DNA from: a virus
IMG/VR virus record: IMGVR_UViG_3300022072_000146
Location: 1-22,468 of that record
Reading direction: 5' to 3' (one strand)
DNA length: 22,468 nt
Below, one piece after another: positions 8,215-18,983 of the stretch; within the stretch, counting starts at the first letter, position 1; each line of letters begins with the position of its first letter. A program made the position numbers and the translations under genes. The notes beneath the pieces were generated by a model. The model saw only the letters and a program-made list of their open reading frames with translations, made no database searches and was not told where the DNA came from.

Positions 8215-8508
8215 ATGCCGGGTGTACATAGAAATAGTGATTCGAGAGCTTGCGGAGCAGTAACACAATCCAGTAGTACCAAAGTACGCGTTAATGGTCG
8301 TGATATTGTGCTGCAGGGAGATAACAACTCGCATGGCGGTGGACCACTAAGAGCATCAGTAACAAATGTCCGCGCAAACGGAAAACCTATTATTATTCTT
8401 AATAATTCTGCTGCGCCGGATAGTTTGTGTGGAGTAATTGGACATGGCGGACACGGACACTGTAATCCAAAAGCCACGAGCGCAAGCGGCAATGTTAATG
8501 CTGGATAA
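8215..8508 (+). CDS. PAAR-domain spike-tip protein
   Basis: 97 residues, the same size class as T4 gp5.4. It starts MPGVHRNSDSRACGA and shows the PAAR pattern of paired strands: VRVNGRDIVLQGDNNSHGGG, then VRANGKPIIILNN, ending CGVIGHGGHGHCNPKAT-ASGNVNAG. His and Cys residues (H5, C13, H40, C72, H76, H79, H81, C82) can supply the zinc site that sharpens the tail-spike tip. It is followed 12 bases later by a large virion protein and preceded by a late promoter, consistent with a baseplate/tail role in penetrating the outer membrane. Confidence 0.85.
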   Translation: MPGVHRNSDSRACGAVTQSSSTKVRVNGRDIVLQGDNNSHGGGPLRASVTNVRANGKPIIILNNSAAPDSLCGVIGHGGHGHCNPKATSASGNVNAG

Positions 8509-8520
8509 CGGAGATACAAT

Positions 8521-9954
8521 ATGAGTTTTACAGATTTCAAAGCAGGTTTACAAAATGTCAATAGTTATATTGACGGAAGACATCACCTAAGCGGCACTAC
8601 TGCGTTAGGCAGCGATGCTCTTAAAATTGTTACAGGAGCGAATTATAGTTTCACTCTACGAGAACTTATTTGTAGTGTTCTTGGCGGACATGGCTTCAAG
8701 TTGCCTAACATTCAGATTTGTTTGTCGGCAAATATAAATGCGTTACTTGGATTAGACCTCTTACAATCAGCACTGCGTGGTGCGATACAATCTCTTTCTG
8801 ATTCGTTTAATAAGTTTATGGATATGTTGTCAATCGACAGTGTAATCGGAAGACTTAACGGTATCCTAAATGAAGCCATCAATGTAGCAAACATGATTAA
8901 CTTTTGTGGTACGGCAATCAATCCAATTGCTATTCCTAATATGATTGAGCAGGCGTTTAGTTCGCTGTTAGGAAAAGGCGATGCTTTAATCAGCAAGATA
9001 GGCTTTCCGTCAATCTCTACCTGTTTATCTCTTGATGGGTCATTCAACACCGGTTCCTTTATCACTGATCCTGGTGATATCACTACAAAAGATCCAGGCA
9101 TACTTGGCGACATTGCTTATTATTACCCAGAAATTTCTACAGGCACAGTCACGACTGAAATCGAGAATGAGCTAGTAAACACTATTTCTAGTATCGTTAC
9201 TGAGATGGAAGCATTAATCGCAGCAGAAACAAATGTAAAGGGCGCATATGCCTCCAGTGATGATGGCACGGGCTCGGGTCTTGGCGGCAGTGACTTTGCT
9301 GACCCTACCTTTAATGGCGGCGGCAGTAGCGAATGTAGTACCACACTAGGAATCCTACATAATCCTGGTTCAGGCACGGTTGCTGAAAATACTCGTATTG
9401 CGGCAAGTCTTAAATCATCATATGACCAGCTTGCTGGATATCCGGTTCAGTATATTGATCCGGTTACCAATGAAGTAGTGGAGTATGCGAATATATTTCA
9501 TCTAATCGTTACACCAGCAGTATTGGCTATATTAGATAAAGATGATGCGTTTATTGCTACGGTAGAGGATCAAATTCCGGTATACGACTATTGCGGCAAT
9601 ACTATTGGGTTCACGGCATCAAGAACGCAAGGTCCAGCTGATGAAAAGAGTGATGGAACTGTTCCAGCGGCAGTGAGTTGTCCTGGTGAAAATAGTGCTG
9701 GTTTAACCACCTTTAGTACGGGCGATGCTACCACAGAATCAATAGCGACAGCAGCAGCAGAAGCATCTGCCGAGGCAGCAGTAGAATCAGGTACCACAGT
9801 GGCTGCAACCTCTACACCATTTCTTTTACCACAATTGACAACCATAGCGAGAGATTCTTCAAACGCCGCGAACGGCAGCCTGATATACAATACTGACAGT
9901 AATAAAATCCAGGGATTTCAGAATGATGTATGGATTAACATAGACGGCACATAA
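8521..9954 (+). CDS. Virion (tail/baseplate) structural protein
   Basis: 477 residues, cotranscribed with PAAR (ACGGAG as SD). It has no signal peptide. The first 170 residues are mixed amphipathic/hydrophobic with scattered Cys (LICSVL, IQICLS, NFCGTA, STCLS). The middle is Gly/Ser-rich (SDDGTGSGLGGSDF, FNGGGSSECS). Residues 405-430 are an Ala/Glu-rich stretch. The C-terminus (SSNAANGSLIYNTDSNKIQ, then GFQNDVWINIDG) matches the short 'NGSLIYNT-TNK-QGF-N-W' module common at the ends of phage fibre and virion proteins. Similar proteins sit beside PAAR in marine T4-like phages. The exact position in the particle is unknown. Confidence 0.78.
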   Translation: MSFTDFKAGLQNVNSYIDGRHHLSGTTALGSDALKIVTGANYSFTLRELICSVLGGHGFKLPNIQICLSANINALLGLDLLQSALRGAIQSLSDSFNKFMDMLSIDSVIGRLNGILNEAINVANMINFCGTAINPIAIPNMIEQAFSSLLGKGDALISKIGFPSISTCLSLDGSFNTGSFITDPGDITTKDPGILGDIAYYYPEISTGTVTTEIENELVNTISSIVTEMEALIAAETNVKGAYASSDDGTGSGLGGSDFADPTFNGGGSSECSTTLGILHNPGSGTVAENTRIAASLKSSYDQLAGYPVQYIDPVTNEVVEYANIFHLIVTPAVLAILDKDDAFIATVEDQIPVYDYCGNTIGFTASRTQGPADEKSDGTVPAAVSCPGENSAGLTTFSTGDATTESIATAAAEASAEAAVESGTTVAATSTPFLLPQLTTIARDSSNAANGSLIYNTDSNKIQGFQNDVWINIDGT

Positions 9955-10753: not shown

Positions 10754-10782
10754 AAAGTGTAGCATTATTTGTTGCACTTTTT
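10754..10782 (+). terminator. terminator of cassette copy A
   Basis: Stem 10754-10763 / 10771-10780 (10 bp including two G-U pairs), 7-base loop, then a T-run. It ends the 10015-10723 operon and abuts the next promoter (-35 at 10785). Confidence 0.72.
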
Positions 10783-10784
10783 AC

Positions 10785-10813
10785 TTGACTTCCTCGTCGC
10801 CACGGTGTATAAT
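10785..10813 (+). promoter_or_regulatory. sigma70-type promoter for the adhesin gene
   Basis: TTGACT (10785-10790), 17-base spacer, perfect TATAAT (10808-10813); ATG at 10857. Confidence 0.75.
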
Positions 10814-10856
10814 TTTAGTACAGAAACAAAGAACACAGCAGAAAAAGAGAATCACT

Positions 10857-12626
10857 ATGAAAAATCTAGCATCATCAGTATCAGCACTCGCAATCGCAGT
10901 AGTAACATCTTCCGTAGCCACATCCACGTTGGCACAAGATGCTGCTACTAACGCAGCAAATATCGCGACTAACGCAACAAATATCGCGACTAACGCAACA
11001 GATATCACAACTAACGCAACTACAGCAGCAGAGGCAAGTGCCACTAACGTAGTCGCCATCGTATTTGTGAATAATCGTTTGACAACGCTGAACAGTAAGA
11101 CTGAAACAGATATTGCGACTAACGTAACAGATATTGCGACTAACGCAGACGCTATCGCATCAAATCGCACTGACGGCATGGCTGCTGTCGGTATAGTATC
11201 GACCGCCACTCAAACCAACGCAACAAATATCGCGACTAACGCAGACGCTATCGAAGCCAACACAGGCGATATCACACAGTTGCAAACCCTCGGCCAGTTT
11301 AATTTCGTCACCGCGATTACTGCCGATAATAACACTCAAACCAACGCAACAAATATCGCGACTAACGTAACAGATATTGCGACTAACGTAACAGATATTG
11401 CGACTAACGCAGACGCTATCGCAATACTACAGACACAAGGCGTAACAGGAGACACTGGCGCTCAGGGCATTCAAGGCATTCAGGGAGAAACAGGCGCACA
11501 GGGAATTCAAGGCATTCAGGGAGAAACAGGCGCAACAGGCGCAGCAGGCGCTGATGGCGATACTGGCATTCAAGGTGAAACAGGTACAGATGGCGTAGAT
11601 GGAACCAATGGCACTAATGGCGTAGATGGCGTAGATGGAACCAATGGCACTAATGGCGTAGATGGCGTAGATGGAACCAATGGCACTAACGGAACTAATG
11701 GCGAAGATGGCGCACAAGGCATTCAAGGCGCAGATGGCACAGATGGCACTAACGGAACTAATGGCGAAGATGGCGCACAAGGCATTCAAGGCGCAGCAGG
11801 CGCAGATGGTGAAACAGGAGACACTGGCGCTCAGGGCATCCAGGGCGAAACAGGTACAGATGGCGTAGATGGCACAGATGGCGATAAAGGCGAAGACGGC
11901 GATAAAGGCGAAGACGGCGACGACTTTAACGGTGACGCTCGTCTGACAGTTGTAGAAACAGCCATCGATACTACAGCAACTACAGCAGCAGGGGCAAGTG
12001 CCGCTAACGCAACAGCTATCACGACTACAGCAACTACAGCAGCAGGGGCAAGTGCCGCCAACGCAGCAGATATCACAACTAACGTAAAGGCTATCGTAGA
12101 TACAGCAGAGCAGACATTGAAGCAAGCAAATAAGGCTCTGTCAGAGGCTATCGTATCACAAAATAATGAACGTATCCTGGCAGTAGCTGAACTCGCAGTA
12201 CAAGCAGAAAAGAACTTGGCAGATGCCAAAGAACTAGATGAGGCAACTAACGCACGAGTAGACACTAACGTTACTGCGATTGCTACTAACGTTACTGCGA
12301 TTGACACCAACAGAACAACCATTCGTAGCAATACATCAGCTATCTCTACCAACCGAGCAGCTATCCAAACCAACGCGGCTAACATCGATAACAACTCCAA
12401 GCGTATCGCCGCTGAATCAGCCAAAACTGCGGCATCGATTAATGCGCTATCATCAGCACCAGTGAACGGCATTGGTGTAGGCTTGGGCATCACAAATGAT
12501 GGCGGTCAGGCTATCTCAGTTGGATTCAAAACAATGCTTGATGCTAACACAATGTTTACTAGCACCTTAGCAGCAGACTCGACTGGTTCAGTGACAGTAG
12601 GCTTCGGCATCGGGTGGTCATTCTAA
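10857..12626 (+). CDS. Exported trimeric autotransporter-like adhesin: signal peptide, coiled coils, collagen-like stalk, YadA-type anchor
   Basis: 589 residues from ATG 10857 (AAAAAGAGAA SD). An upstream in-frame start at 10785 lies in the promoter and is rejected. Residues 1-26 are a Sec signal peptide ending STLA-QDA. Residues 27-194 contain heptads of the form I-A-T-N-A-T-N with Ile at a and Asn at d, the 'N@d' layer known from trimeric adhesin stalks. Residues ~195-358 are Gly-X-Y collagen-like repeats (GIQGETGAQ, GVDGTNGTNG, GDKGEDG). More coiled coil with AIATNVTAIDTN follows. The last ~65 residues (SAPVNGIGVGLGITNDGG ... VGFGIGWSF) match the YadA anchor: four beta strands ending in aromatic Phe. 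The protein is expected in the outer membrane of the infected cell, not in the virion. Function is inferred: surface display, exclusion or aggregation. Confidence 0.85.
   Translation: MKNLASSVSALAIAVVTSSVATSTLAQDAATNAANIATNATNIATNATDITTNATTAAEASATNVVAIVFVNNRLTTLNSKTETDIATNVTDIATNADAIASNRTDGMAAVGIVSTATQTNATNIATNADAIEANTGDITQLQTLGQFNFVTAITADNNTQTNATNIATNVTDIATNVTDIATNADAIAILQTQGVTGDTGAQGIQGIQGETGAQGIQGIQGETGATGAAGADGDTGIQGETGTDGVDGTNGTNGVDGVDGTNGTNGVDGVDGTNGTNGTNGEDGAQGIQGADGTDGTNGTNGEDGAQGIQGAAGADGETGDTGAQGIQGETGTDGVDGTDGDKGEDGDKGEDGDDFNGDARLTVVETAIDTTATTAAGASAANATAITTTATTAAGASAANAADITTNVKAIVDTAEQTLKQANKALSEAIVSQNNERILAVAELAVQAEKNLADAKELDEATNARVDTNVTAIATNVTAIDTNRTTIRSNTSAISTNRAAIQTNAANIDNNSKRIAAESAKTAASINALSSAPVNGIGVGLGITNDGGQAISVGFKTMLDANTMFTSTLAADSTGSVTVGFGIGWSF
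11440..11930 (+). repeat. collagen-like Gly-X-Y coding repeats
   Basis: Tandem 9- to 36-base units, for example the GATGGAACCAATGGCACTAA blocks around 11598-11700 and the repeated AATGGCGAAGATGGCGCACA blocks near 11698 and 11760. They encode Gly-X-Y triplets. Copy number is likely to vary by slippage or recombination. Confidence 0.8.
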
Positions 12627-12663: not shown

Positions 12664-12691
12664 AAGCGCAGCATTAATTGTTGCGCTTTTT
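12664..12691 (+). terminator. terminator of cassette copy B
   Basis: Stem AAGCGCAGC (12664-12672) / GTTGCGCTT (12680-12688) with one G-U pair, 7-base loop, T5. It ends the adhesin transcript immediately before the next promoter. Confidence 0.82.
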
Positions 12692-12693
12692 GG

Positions 12694-12722
12694 TTGACAA
12701 CCAGAATACCTTAGTGTATTGT
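12694..12722 (+). promoter_or_regulatory. sigma70-type promoter for the 12755 gene
   Basis: TTGACA (12694-12699), 17-base spacer, TATTGT (12717-12722). The -10 lies over an upstream in-frame ATG (12719), which is why the gene start is set at 12755. Confidence 0.72.
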
Positions 12723-12754
12723 ATATGTATAGCAACAGAGAAAAGAGAATCATC

Positions 12755-14341: not shown

Positions 14342-16267
14342 ATGAGATTAGCAGTTCTAGTAATGTTAACAGCCCTGACGATTAGTGGCGTAGCAATTTA
14401 TTATAGTGTAGCCGGATTGGTAGCAATCTTTGCTTCCGCAGCTATACCTATTATCATCATGGGCGGTGCTCTTGAAGTTGGTAAACTTGTGGCGGCTGTT
14501 TGGCTACACAAATACTGGGCCCGCGCAGCATGGTGGCTAAGAGCGTATCTTAGTGTAAGTGTGGTTGTTCTTATGTTTATTACAAGTATGGGAATCTTTG
14601 GGTTCTTATCTAAAGCACACATTGAGCAAACATCGAACGCACAGGAAGGTGTAGCACAAATAGAACGTGCGGCAACAGAGATTACTCGACAGAATGAAAT
14701 CATTGCCAGAGCCGAAGAAAAAATAAGCAAAGCAGAATCAAGTTCTGGCAACCTTAATACCGACATACAAACACAGATTGACCAAGAACAAGAACGTATT
14801 GACAGTACATATAACAGAGTTCAGCCGGCTATTGCTGAGCAAAATGCCATCATTGAAAACGCAAGAACAGATGATGCTGGAAGAACAAAACCATACGAAG
14901 AGCAACTAACAAATATTCAAGCAGAAGTAATAAGACTTGGGGCAACAGCGAGTGAATATGAGCAATCTATCACAACACTAAGTGCCGATGTTAGTCCTGT
15001 TCAGCCGTTACTAGATAGTATTACGAATATAGAAGCAGAAATCATTCGTGTTACTAATCAGCTACAAAGTAAAGAACGAGACCAAATTCGTGCTGGTCAA
15101 GCAATCATCGGCGTAAGCAGTGATGGAGCATTTGGCAGCAACACTCGCCGAGCACTAGTAGCATGGGTCGAGGCACAACGAGGACGCATAACACAGATAC
15201 AACTAGATGTGTCGAGAATACGCCAAGATGCTACCACGCAAATAGACGCAGAACGCACCAGACTTGCTGGTGTTGTAGATGGCATTCGTGTTACGCAAAT
15301 ACCTGCGCTCAAAGATCGGGAAGTTGCGATGCTTGCTAAGATTGATGAGGTTCGTTCTAGTGAGTCACCAGCTATCGCCACAGCTAGAAATGAAATTGCT
15401 CGAATCAGAACGGGCGCAGAGCAACAGATATCAGCAAGCCAGACACTGGTCGAAAGACTGCGTAATAGTTTACAAGTAGGCATCGATGAAAATTCGGATA
15501 CTATCGTACAGGCACAAACAATCAAAATTCGTGAAGCAAACGAAACTATTGACACATTAACAGAACAACAGTATGCTTTACAGGCAGACTATAGAAAATT
15601 AGAAGCAGAAGTAGGACCAGTTAAATATCTAGCAGAGTTTATTTACGGCAATGAGGCTGGACAAGATTTACTCGAGGAAGCAGTACGATGGGTAATCATT
15701 GTTATTATCTTTGTATTTGATCCACTTGCTGTTGTTCTCCTAATCGCTAGTCAGTACACATTTGAGTGGAATAGAAAGCATAAGAAGAAGGATGATGTTG
15801 AGCCAGATCCTACACCACCGAGCAATCCTACACCAAAAATAAAGGACATCACTTTATCTAATAATCCAGAACCGTGGCATTCGGTAAGTTCAATATCGCC
15901 AATAGAATGGTCTCTTGGTCCATTACCAACACCGGCACCGGTCGACTTTGCTCCTGCTATAGTAGAACCAGTAGCAGAGGTAATACCAGAGCCAGTAGTA
16001 GAACCGGTAGTAGAACCAGTAGTAGAGGTAATACCAGAGCCAGTAGTAGAACCAGTAGTAGAGCCAGTAGTAGAGGTAATACCAGAGCCAGTAGTAGAAC
16101 AGGTAGTAGAACCAGTAGTAGAGCCAGTAGTAGAGGTAATACCAGAGCCAGAAGTCAAGATAGAAAAAGAACAACGAAGCGAAACAATTCAGCCAGCACC
16201 AGATACTAAACCTGGAGCAAAGGGCGTTAGTAAAGTCTTTAGATTCGCAGAGAAAACTAACAGTTGA
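14342..16267 (+). CDS. Inner-membrane coiled-coil protein with PG-binding-like motif and VEP repeats
   Basis: 641 residues. Three N-terminal membrane segments (about 5-28, 30-52, 68-90; SAAIPIIIMGGALEVGKLV and VVLMFITSMGIFGFLSKAH are typical of a membrane protein in marine T4-like phages). Residues ~95-445 are a long Ala/Glu/Gln/Arg coiled coil. Within it, 251-280 (AGQAIIGVSSDGAFGSNTRR, ALVAWVEAQR) resembles a peptidoglycan-binding motif. A fourth membrane segment is at 448-472. The tail is Pro-rich with VVEPVVEVIPEP repeats (541-604). A four-span layout predicts both termini on one side and the coiled coil on the other; a periplasmic coil would fit the PG-binding-like motif. It resembles the DUF4407 architecture. 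Function unknown. Confidence 0.8.
   Translation: MRLAVLVMLTALTISGVAIYYSVAGLVAIFASAAIPIIIMGGALEVGKLVAAVWLHKYWARAAWWLRAYLSVSVVVLMFITSMGIFGFLSKAHIEQTSNAQEGVAQIERAATEITRQNEIIARAEEKISKAESSSGNLNTDIQTQIDQEQERIDSTYNRVQPAIAEQNAIIENARTDDAGRTKPYEEQLTNIQAEVIRLGATASEYEQSITTLSADVSPVQPLLDSITNIEAEIIRVTNQLQSKERDQIRAGQAIIGVSSDGAFGSNTRRALVAWVEAQRGRITQIQLDVSRIRQDATTQIDAERTRLAGVVDGIRVTQIPALKDREVAMLAKIDEVRSSESPAIATARNEIARIRTGAEQQISASQTLVERLRNSLQVGIDENSDTIVQAQTIKIREANETIDTLTEQQYALQADYRKLEAEVGPVKYLAEFIYGNEAGQDLLEEAVRWVIIVIIFVFDPLAVVLLIASQYTFEWNRKHKKKDDVEPDPTPPSNPTPKIKDITLSNNPEPWHSVSSISPIEWSLGPLPTPAPVDFAPAIVEPVAEVIPEPVVEPVVEPVVEVIPEPVVEPVVEPVVEVIPEPVVEQVVEPVVEPVVEVIPEPEVKIEKEQRSETIQPAPDTKPGAKGVSKVFRFAEKTNS
15961..16150 (+). 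repeat. imperfect 48-60 bp repeats encoding VIPEPVVEPVVEPVVE
   Basis: Tandem units built from GTAGTAGAACCAGTAGTAGA-type sequence encode Val/Glu/Pro repeats at residues ~541-604 of the membrane protein. The rigid extended composition recalls TonB-type spacers. Likely hypervariable in length. Confidence 0.8.
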
Positions 16268-16761: not shown

Positions 16762-16806
16762 ATGTTAAAAAGCAACCACTCAAACAAAAAAGTTACAAAT
16801 GTCTAA
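16762..16806 (+). CDS. 14-codon leader ORF overlapping IF-3
   Basis: ATG 16762 follows the only good SD in the gap (AAGGGA, 16752-16757). It reads MLKSNHSNKKVTNV and stops at TAA 16804-16806. The IF-3 ATG (16799) lies inside its last codons in another frame (AATGTCTAA). IF-3 itself has no SD (AAAAAAGTTACAA before ATG), so termination-reinitiation on this leader is the likely way it is translated. Translation of such a short ORF is inferred, not proven. Confidence 0.55.
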   Translation: MLKSNHSNKKVTNV

Positions 16807-17332
16807 TTTCAAAAAACGCGAAGAACGTCAGGCGATTAACGAGCATATTAGATACAATGAATTACGTGTTCTGGATGAATCAGGACAACTAGGCGTAATG
16901 TCGAAAGCAAAGGCATTGCGGATTGCTGAGGAGCAAGGATTGGATTTGGTAGTAATCACCGAAACAGTTGATCCTCCAGTTGCGAAAATTCTAGATGCCA
17001 CTAAGCACTTCTATGAGCAGAAAAAACGTGAAAAAGAAGTAGCAAAAAAGCAGCGTGAAGGACGAGTTGAAGTCAAAGAAATTCAATTCCGTCCAGGTAT
17101 CGGCATTCATGATTTCGAAACTAAACTCAAGCACATTGATAACTTTTTGAGCAAGGGCGCTAAAGTTCGCTGTATGGTAAGATACAAAGGCAGAGAGAAC
17201 GCTAACAAACAAATTGGATTTGAGGTACTACAGAGAATAGTCGAAACACTTGAAAATTCAGAATGGGAAACCCCGCCAAATCTGAATGGAAATAGATTAA
17301 TAGGGATATTGAAAAGAGATAAAAATGAGTAA
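16799..17332 (+). CDS. infC: Translation initiation factor IF-3 homologue
   Basis: 177 residues, the length of bacterial IF-3 (about 180). The N-domain starts INEHIRYNELRVLDESGQLG, then ALRIAEEQGLDLVVITETVD, PPVAKILDATKHFYEQKK (counterpart of the PPVCRIMDYGKFLYE signature). A Lys-rich linker (76-89) follows, then the C-domain: VEVKEIQFRPG (90-100), DFETKLKHIDNFLSKGAKVR, MVRYKGRENANKQIGFEVLQ, and NRLIGILKR. Both lobes and the linker are intact, so 30S binding and start-codon proofreading are plausible. The 3' end overlaps or adjoins bS21. IF-3 is essential in bacteria and rare in phages. It could favour phage mRNAs or displace host IF-3. Confidence 0.93.
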   Translation: MSNFKKREERQAINEHIRYNELRVLDESGQLGVMSKAKALRIAEEQGLDLVVITETVDPPVAKILDATKHFYEQKKREKEVAKKQREGRVEVKEIQFRPGIGIHDFETKLKHIDNFLSKGAKVRCMVRYKGRENANKQIGFEVLQRIVETLENSEWETPPNLNGNRLIGILKRDKNE

Positions 17333-17697: not shown

Positions 17698-18030
17698 AGA
17701 TTCGCCAGAATATATAATGAATGGTTTAACATGAGCACTCACACAGTAACAAAAACTAATATCGGTATCATTACAGGATTACCGAGCAAATATAAGGTAA
17801 TATTACTCAATGATAATTTTACTCCGGTAGATTTTGTGATTGCGTTATTGATTGATGTATTTGGCAAGAACGAAGATGATGCTATTAATATAACATGGCA
17901 AGTTCATCATAATGGCAAAGGTATTGCTGGTGTTTACTACCACGAACTCGCCGAGCAAAAGGTACAGGAAGCAACACGATATTCTCGAAAAAGTGGCTTT
18001 CCATTGGGATTTTCATTAGAAGAAGATTAA
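17635..18030 (+). CDS. clpS: ClpS, N-degron adaptor of Clp protease
   Basis: 131 residues from ATG 17635, or 99 from ATG 17731 (MSTHTVTK). The second fits the usual ClpS N-terminal length better; neither has a good SD. The core PSKYKVILLNDNFTPVDFVI, TWQVHHNGKGIAGVYYHELA, EQKVQEATRYSRKSGFPLGF is a full ClpS domain. Substrate-pocket residues N59, D60, T63 and H91 match E. coli N34, D35, T38 and H66; the gate Met40 is Val65. ClpS delivers proteins with Leu/Phe/Tyr/Trp N-termini to ClpA(C)P. A phage copy could redirect host proteolysis. A terminator follows at 18063. Confidence 0.92.
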   Translation: MSTGDAEIHPREVTVNLPILPRFARIYNEWFNMSTHTVTKTNIGIITGLPSKYKVILLNDNFTPVDFVIALLIDVFGKNEDDAINITWQVHHNGKGIAGVYYHELAEQKVQEATRYSRKSGFPLGFSLEED

Positions 18031-18062: not shown

Positions 18063-18091
18063 AAAGCGCAGCATTAATTGTTTCGCTTTTT
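18063..18091 (+). terminator. terminator of cassette copy C
   Basis: Stem 18063-18072 / 18080-18089 with one C-T mismatch, 7-base loop, T-run; ends the clpS transcript next to the -35 at 18094. Confidence 0.7.
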
Positions 18092-18093
18092 GC

Positions 18094-18122
18094 TTGACAA
18101 CCAAGACGCCTTGGTGTATTGT
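18094..18122 (+). promoter_or_regulatory. sigma70-type promoter for the 18154 gene cluster
   Basis: TTGACA (18094-18099), 17-base spacer, TATTGT (18117-18122); 31 bases to ATG 18154. Confidence 0.72.
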
Positions 18123-18153
18123 ATATGTATAGCAACGAAGAAAGAGAATCACT

Positions 18154-18942: not shown

Positions 18943-18983
18943 ACCAATATCTAACACCATCCTAACACAGAGAAATGTATAAT

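Follow-up and report, generated by a model that had tools for sequence, protein, structure and literature searches.

A phage gene for a collagen-like fibre with a predicted YadA-type membrane anchor

Introduction

Does a collagen-like fibre encoded by a phage belong to the virion, or could it be displayed on the infected cell? The question is raised by an open reading frame of IMG/VR record IMGVR_UViG_3300022072_000146, of which we analysed the whole stretch of 22,468 nts (hereafter the window), coming probably from an uncultured marine phage. A first-pass annotation, made from the letters of the sequence, had read the product as an exported, trimeric and membrane-anchored fibre, not as a tail fibre. 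The collagen-like tail fibres of phages (PHROG 5073 and 1806) resemble this product in their Gly-X-Y repeats and coiled-coil stalks but, unlike it, are expected to carry neither an export leader nor a membrane anchor. Type Vc trimeric autotransporter adhesins are well known. We argue here that the locus is probably an accessory gene, comparable to a moron, of a marine phage of the T4 superfamily, and that it encodes a trimeric-autotransporter-type fibre displayed on infected cells.

Results

Layout of the gene and its product

The gene occupies positions 10857–12626 on the + strand, exactly as first annotated, with an ATG at 10857 and a stop codon at 12624–12626. Its translation of 589 aa is free of cysteine. 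The protein begins with a signal-peptide-like leader (residues 1–26, positions 10857–10934; MKNLASSVSALAIAVVTSSVATSTLA|QD) with a predicted cut after TLA. This leader passes a crude signal-peptide rule, consistent with the Sec signal peptide claimed earlier; its hydrophobic core is modest, below most, and the same rule was met by 3/33 genes of the window and by 15/140 ORFs of its relatives. An N-terminal stalk follows (residues 27–194, positions 10935–11438), in which 11 I-x-x-N motifs and 21-bp tandem repeats were found and the heptads are broken up by short hydrophobic inserts. The collagen-like region (residues 195–356, positions 11439–11924) consists of 54 consecutive Gly-X-Y triplets with no interruption and no proline; Pfam Collagen matched it with E = 1.2e-26, which bears out the long Gly-X-Y region of the first-pass annotation. 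A C-terminal stalk (residues 357–518, positions 11925–12410) carries seven I-x-x-N motifs, and AF2 models contain a helix over about residues 470–530. The protein ends with a putative YadA-type membrane-anchor domain (residues 519–589, positions 12411–12623) of four predicted strands, with Phe as final residue. All of these features lie on the + strand.

The Ile-Asn heptads, with Asn in position d, proved far more frequent than composition predicts: I-x-x-N occurs 18 times in the protein against 3.8 expected from composition-preserving shuffles, and in tandem heptads 12 times against 0.07. The [I/V]xxNxxx heptad is the pattern described for trimeric coiled coils (PMC12933892), and a trimeric stalk of the kind carried by type Vc adhesins is predicted on this basis. 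No head domain of the trimeric autotransporter type was recognised in the 589 aa. Arithmetic from standard rises gives a fibre of ~95 nm.

Similarity of the C-terminus to YadA anchors

Compared with Pfam at full length, the protein gave no anchor match. The last 101 residues alone reached 17.1 bits with PF03895 (E = 0.006), below the cut-off of 22.7, in an alignment spanning profile positions 12–60 of 60 and reaching the last residue of the protein. Weak tblastn matches in cultured phages (E 0.2–9) led to several phage proteins annotated ‘adhesin’. A family HMM was made of 14 cultured-phage YadA anchors, together with a held-out version omitting the 4 seeds found via the window sequence. On the window C-terminus the family HMM scored 32.3 bits (best shuffle 16.5) and the held-out HMM 31.5 bits (best of 20,000 shuffles, 16.7). 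Over 2,217 real ORFs, the window protein scored 28.6 and the top unrelated ORF 5.3. For the anchor ending in Phe that had been proposed at the outset, the direct PF03895 score thus fell short, but the alignment runs to both ends and the phage-anchor profile is significant, which argues for homology to the anchor of type Vc adhesins.

Profile A3, which joins the window sequence to 24 viral anchors, matched Hia (3.2e-15), YadA (3.5e-14) and AtaA (6.1e-9) in the PDB. With the A3 alignment, AF2 produced one helix and four strands in the anchor at low confidence (pLDDT 54), and the top five Foldseek matches of this model were the anchors of AtaA, Hia (three entries) and YadA. VIA-align on the AF2 anchor model placed methyltransferase sheets level with TAA anchors, with no separation from unrelated beta sheets; the model is therefore supporting rather than decisive. 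PDB matches obtained from single-sequence AF2 of the anchor region were uninformative.

Could a glycine-rich beta stretch have come to resemble YadA anchors by convergence, the product being a secreted collagen fibre free of any membrane anchor? A direct Pfam score under the cut-off would fit, as would the identity of 16–28% between the window C-terminal region and the 24 viral members. Against this stand an alignment that is end to end, up to the last residue, composition-preserving shuffles none of which came near, and the agreement of the held-out HMM. We regard convergence as extremely improbable. Chance similarity is rejected on the end-to-end alignment, the shuffles and the held-out HMM.

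Leader and anchor among stalk-carrying proteins

A different reading makes the product a tail or head fibre of the virion, in which the hydrophobic N-terminus serves for attachment to the particle, with the YadA-like domain as receptor-binding tip. Phage collagen repeats and I-x-x-N stalks do usually belong to tail fibres, and the PHROG matches of the window protein are tail fibres, though these matches are repeat-driven. Published precedents include a marine phage whose tail fibre is reported to contain a YadA-like domain (PMC3909814) and pelagimyophages with YadA domains in their structural operons (PMC7029224). As a control, we collected 35 further viral proteins that share this type of stalk. 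The anchor is present in none of them (0/35) and only 2/35 meet the leader rule, both with doubtful starts; they look like ordinary tail fibres. In place of an N-terminal virion-attachment domain, the window protein has its leader, unlike nearly all of these 35 proteins. Since none of the look-alikes has the anchor and hardly any has the leader, the combination of leader and anchor marks a class apart, which weighs against the virion fibre.

YadA-anchored genes in other phages

Searching with the Erwinia phage RF1 protein revealed related anchors in at least 78 phage records. Examples from cultured phages, which infect gut and plant bacteria, are, besides RF1, phiEco32 gp119 (an ‘agglutinating adhesin’), Erwinia phage S6 gp046, Yersinia phage P778, Salmonella phage Munch and Cronobacter phage GAP32. 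The PF03895 cut-off was passed by 10/10 cultured members tested, and 4/10 also matched Collagen; collagen repeats, leader and anchor are combined in RF1, P778, phiEco32 and Munch. The first-pass annotation had suggested looking for the same layout in related phage genomes, and this leader-stalk-anchor order was indeed recovered in cultured phages, four of them with collagen. Leaders were present, at or near the annotated start, in all 14 cultured-phage relatives read, and in 22/24 IMG/VR members, a set that overlaps the cultured one (some are the same phages) and in which one exception is a 5′-cut record; both proportions contrast with the 15/140 of background ORFs. The collagen of the window is longer, with 54 triplets against 17–22 in the cultured examples read and up to 44 in IMG/VR locus L042. 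Because many phages encode YadA-anchored ‘adhesins’, the window fibre does not appear singular, and since YadA-like adhesin genes are already annotated in GenBank phages, it represents a divergent addition to a known group. In the literature searched on phage-encoded YadA-anchored proteins we found no paper testing the function of one.

The neighbours of the cultured homologues are tRNAs and small hypothetical genes of early type, or else dUTPase, polA or nrd genes; tail genes mostly lie elsewhere, and this further disfavours a tail fibre. In Pantoea phage AAM22, the YadA-anchored gene also adjoins structural genes of the opposite strand. In phiEco32, gp119 is located on the strand opposite to the late cluster, in a part described as early or middle (PMC8948821); its position suggests the early class. 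A tyrosine integrase was found in 1/16 records and was absent from the other 15, hence lysogenic conversion is not the usual role of these genes. One distant homologue favours the virion reading: the annotation of gp092 of Yersinia phage fHe-Yen8-01 reads ‘receptor binding protein, phage particle associated’. Several small neighbouring proteins of this phage bear the particle-associated label too, so carry-over of membrane material is possible.

An accessory slot in the lineage of the window

The window encodes nrdA/nrdB, glutaredoxin, a PAAR-motif protein, a cell-wall hydrolase, IF-3 and ClpS. NrdB (5251–6381) is closest (~61%) to phages of 350–380 kb such as XbC2, GAP32 and CBB, and the exonuclease (649–1335) is close to that of Agrobacterium phage Atu_ph07 (490 kb). 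These closest matches suggest a large T4-superfamily phage as source, the window being a piece of a jumbo phage genome. A search for the Gp23 capsid protein in two relatives found nothing, and when the whole window was compared with cultured phages at the DNA level, no match was obtained.

Nine IF-3-related contigs share, where covered, the order hnh, slot, p75, hydrolase, nuclease, membrane protein, IF-3 and ClpS. Between hnh and p75, these contigs carry other, unrelated and non-structural genes, for instance radical-SAM-like and oxygenase-like genes (named from sequence only) at L016:2076–3699. The slot looks like an accessory-gene hotspot, and no YadA anchor was seen in any of the nine contigs. 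The adhesin gene is also carried by the near-identical virus L002, whose contig ends within the collagen repeats. Among viral contigs, no close relative of the C-terminus was confirmed.

At 8215–9954, a PAAR-motif gene is followed by a gene for a 477-aa protein with a weakly tail-fibre-like C-terminus, both having relatives in several related contigs. The adhesin gene sits ~0.9 kb downstream of this pair. Such a PAAR gene and possible fibre gene upstream would place it near a structural cluster, as a virion fibre might be, yet the slot itself holds accessory, non-structural genes in the relatives.

Repeated terminator-promoter cassettes

An element of ~80 bp is present in three copies in the window (10755–10834, 12664–12743 and 18064–18143), two of which bracket the adhesin gene. 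Each has a terminator hairpin followed by a TTGAC-17-TATAAT-type promoter. The upstream, PeSL-like copy (10755–10834, + strand; repeat family D4) combines a hairpin of -9.7 kcal/mol with the promoter of the adhesin gene, TTGACT-17-TATAAT at 10785, a sigma70-type sequence found by promoter scan. In the downstream copy (12664–12743, + strand; same family), the terminator at 12664–12691 reaches -14.6 kcal/mol and no shuffle folds equally well; the cassette hairpins in general fold better than shuffles. The downstream copy would end the adhesin transcript and start the next one. Both signals of the ‘dedicated strong promoter and terminator’ announced by the first-pass annotation are therefore in place, but they are not dedicated, being copies of an element found three times. 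Fragments of similar elements, with weak scores, are present in related viruses.

A repeated unit of promoter and stem-loop flanking accessory genes corresponds, as far as the sequence tells, to the PeSL of T4-type phages. PeSL cassettes are credited with mediating gene shuffling in these phages (Arbiol 2010; Comeau 2014; as cited in PMC4503421). Relative to the PeSL as presented in that source, the window cassettes similarly bracket an accessory gene, but their order is terminator then promoter, and only slot variation is seen in the window lineage. The repeated cassette is probably mobile, and its movement, which we infer, would explain the patchy distribution of the gene.

The sigma70-type promoter also speaks against a virion fibre. 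An ordinary tail fibre is rejected on the anchor, the leader, the slot content, the neighbourhoods of cultured homologues and this promoter; overall, we consider a tail or head fibre unlikely.

A mobile cassette raises another alternative, that the fibre is exported and anchored and has no phage-specific function, as a bacterial adhesin gene in transit. The gene is patchy, being present in the window virus and in the near-identical L002 and not seen in the nine related contigs; it is flanked by repeats, and its GC content is higher (~47% versus ~40%). Its frame is nevertheless intact, with an organised promoter and terminator, and two scans of 84,980 bacterial genomes, which reach close relatives only, returned no relative. 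Moreover, unrelated lineages of virulent phages share this architecture, which suggests selection. A gene merely in transit is accordingly judged very improbable.

Discussion

A fibre probably displayed on infected cells

The leader, trimer-type stalks, collagen segment, YadA-anchor-homologous C-terminus and terminator-promoter cassette can be read directly in the window. The exported, trimeric and anchored fibre of the first-pass annotation is favoured over a tail fibre by the anchor homology, the layouts of cultured phages and the stalk look-alike control. The scheme that follows is built on what is established for type Vc secretion, namely export by Sec, insertion of a trimeric barrel with the help of BAM and exposure of a long fibre. 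The Sec and BAM machineries of the host would export the fibre, three chains would assemble into a 12-strand outer-membrane barrel, and a fibre of ~95 nm would be exposed on the infected cell.

Compared with the type Vc adhesins YadA, Hia, SadA and AtaA, the window fibre has a leader of the same kind, a predicted trimeric coiled-coil stalk and a predicted four-strand anchor ending with an aromatic residue. It differs in being phage-encoded, in having no recognised head domain, in the 54-triplet collagen placed inside its stalk and in a direct Pfam anchor score below the cut-off. With the YadA-anchored ‘adhesins’ of cultured phages it shares leader, stalk, anchor and mostly non-structural neighbourhoods, and collagen repeats with RF1, P778, phiEco32 and Munch. 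The curli operon of pelagimyophages is also a phage-encoded machinery for a cell-surface fibre, for which aggregation (‘sibling capture’) has been proposed (PMC7029224); it uses type VIII secretion instead, and no sequence relation to the window fibre is expected.

As to its role, the fibre would most likely change the way in which phages and other cells interact with the infected-cell surface. Among possible functions, we put superinfection exclusion or receptor shielding slightly ahead of the aggregation of infected cells with their neighbours or sibling capture, itself a tentative proposal; other surface roles, for example as a debris decoy, would take the remaining share.

More generally, virulent phages of several unrelated lineages, one of them marine, may produce trimeric autotransporter fibres of their own soon after infection begins and so alter the surface of the cell that they will kill, for superinfection exclusion or to tether neighbours. 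That these form a general, unrecognised class is a proposition for which we see the balance as even. The interest lies mostly in this class of phage YadA-anchored proteins. Genes for such proteins, annotated ‘adhesin’ or ‘tail protein’, occur here and there in phage genomes. Should infected cells display their products, ‘tail fibre’ would be the wrong annotation in many cases, and phages would own a surface-display route that uses host autotransporter export and is testable in culturable coliphages such as phiEco32.

Other genes of the window

In the window, nrdA (1878–5178) is divided into two ORFs, of 496 and 343 aa, between which lies a 260-aa ORF (3368–4150) that resembles the GIY-YIG ORF of the window at 18975 (37% identity over part, as seen in L002). 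This recalls the split nrdA with homing endonucleases of T4-like phages. A second GIY-YIG/NUMOD3 ORF (6382–7521) comes after nrdB. The IF-3 gene (16799–17332) encodes both domains of the translation initiation factor (Pfam E ~1e-25) and has relatives in 71 cultured phage records. At 14342–16267, a 641-aa protein combines an N-terminal membrane region with a coiled coil and a tail of VVEPVVEVIPEP-type repeats; jumbo phages and Pelagibacter phage Mosig share its N-terminus. Finally, a homologue of the ClpS protease adaptor (17725–18030, Pfam E = 4.7e-27) is found at the corresponding position of the nine related contigs, and a phage ClpS would be a possible way to redirect host proteolysis.
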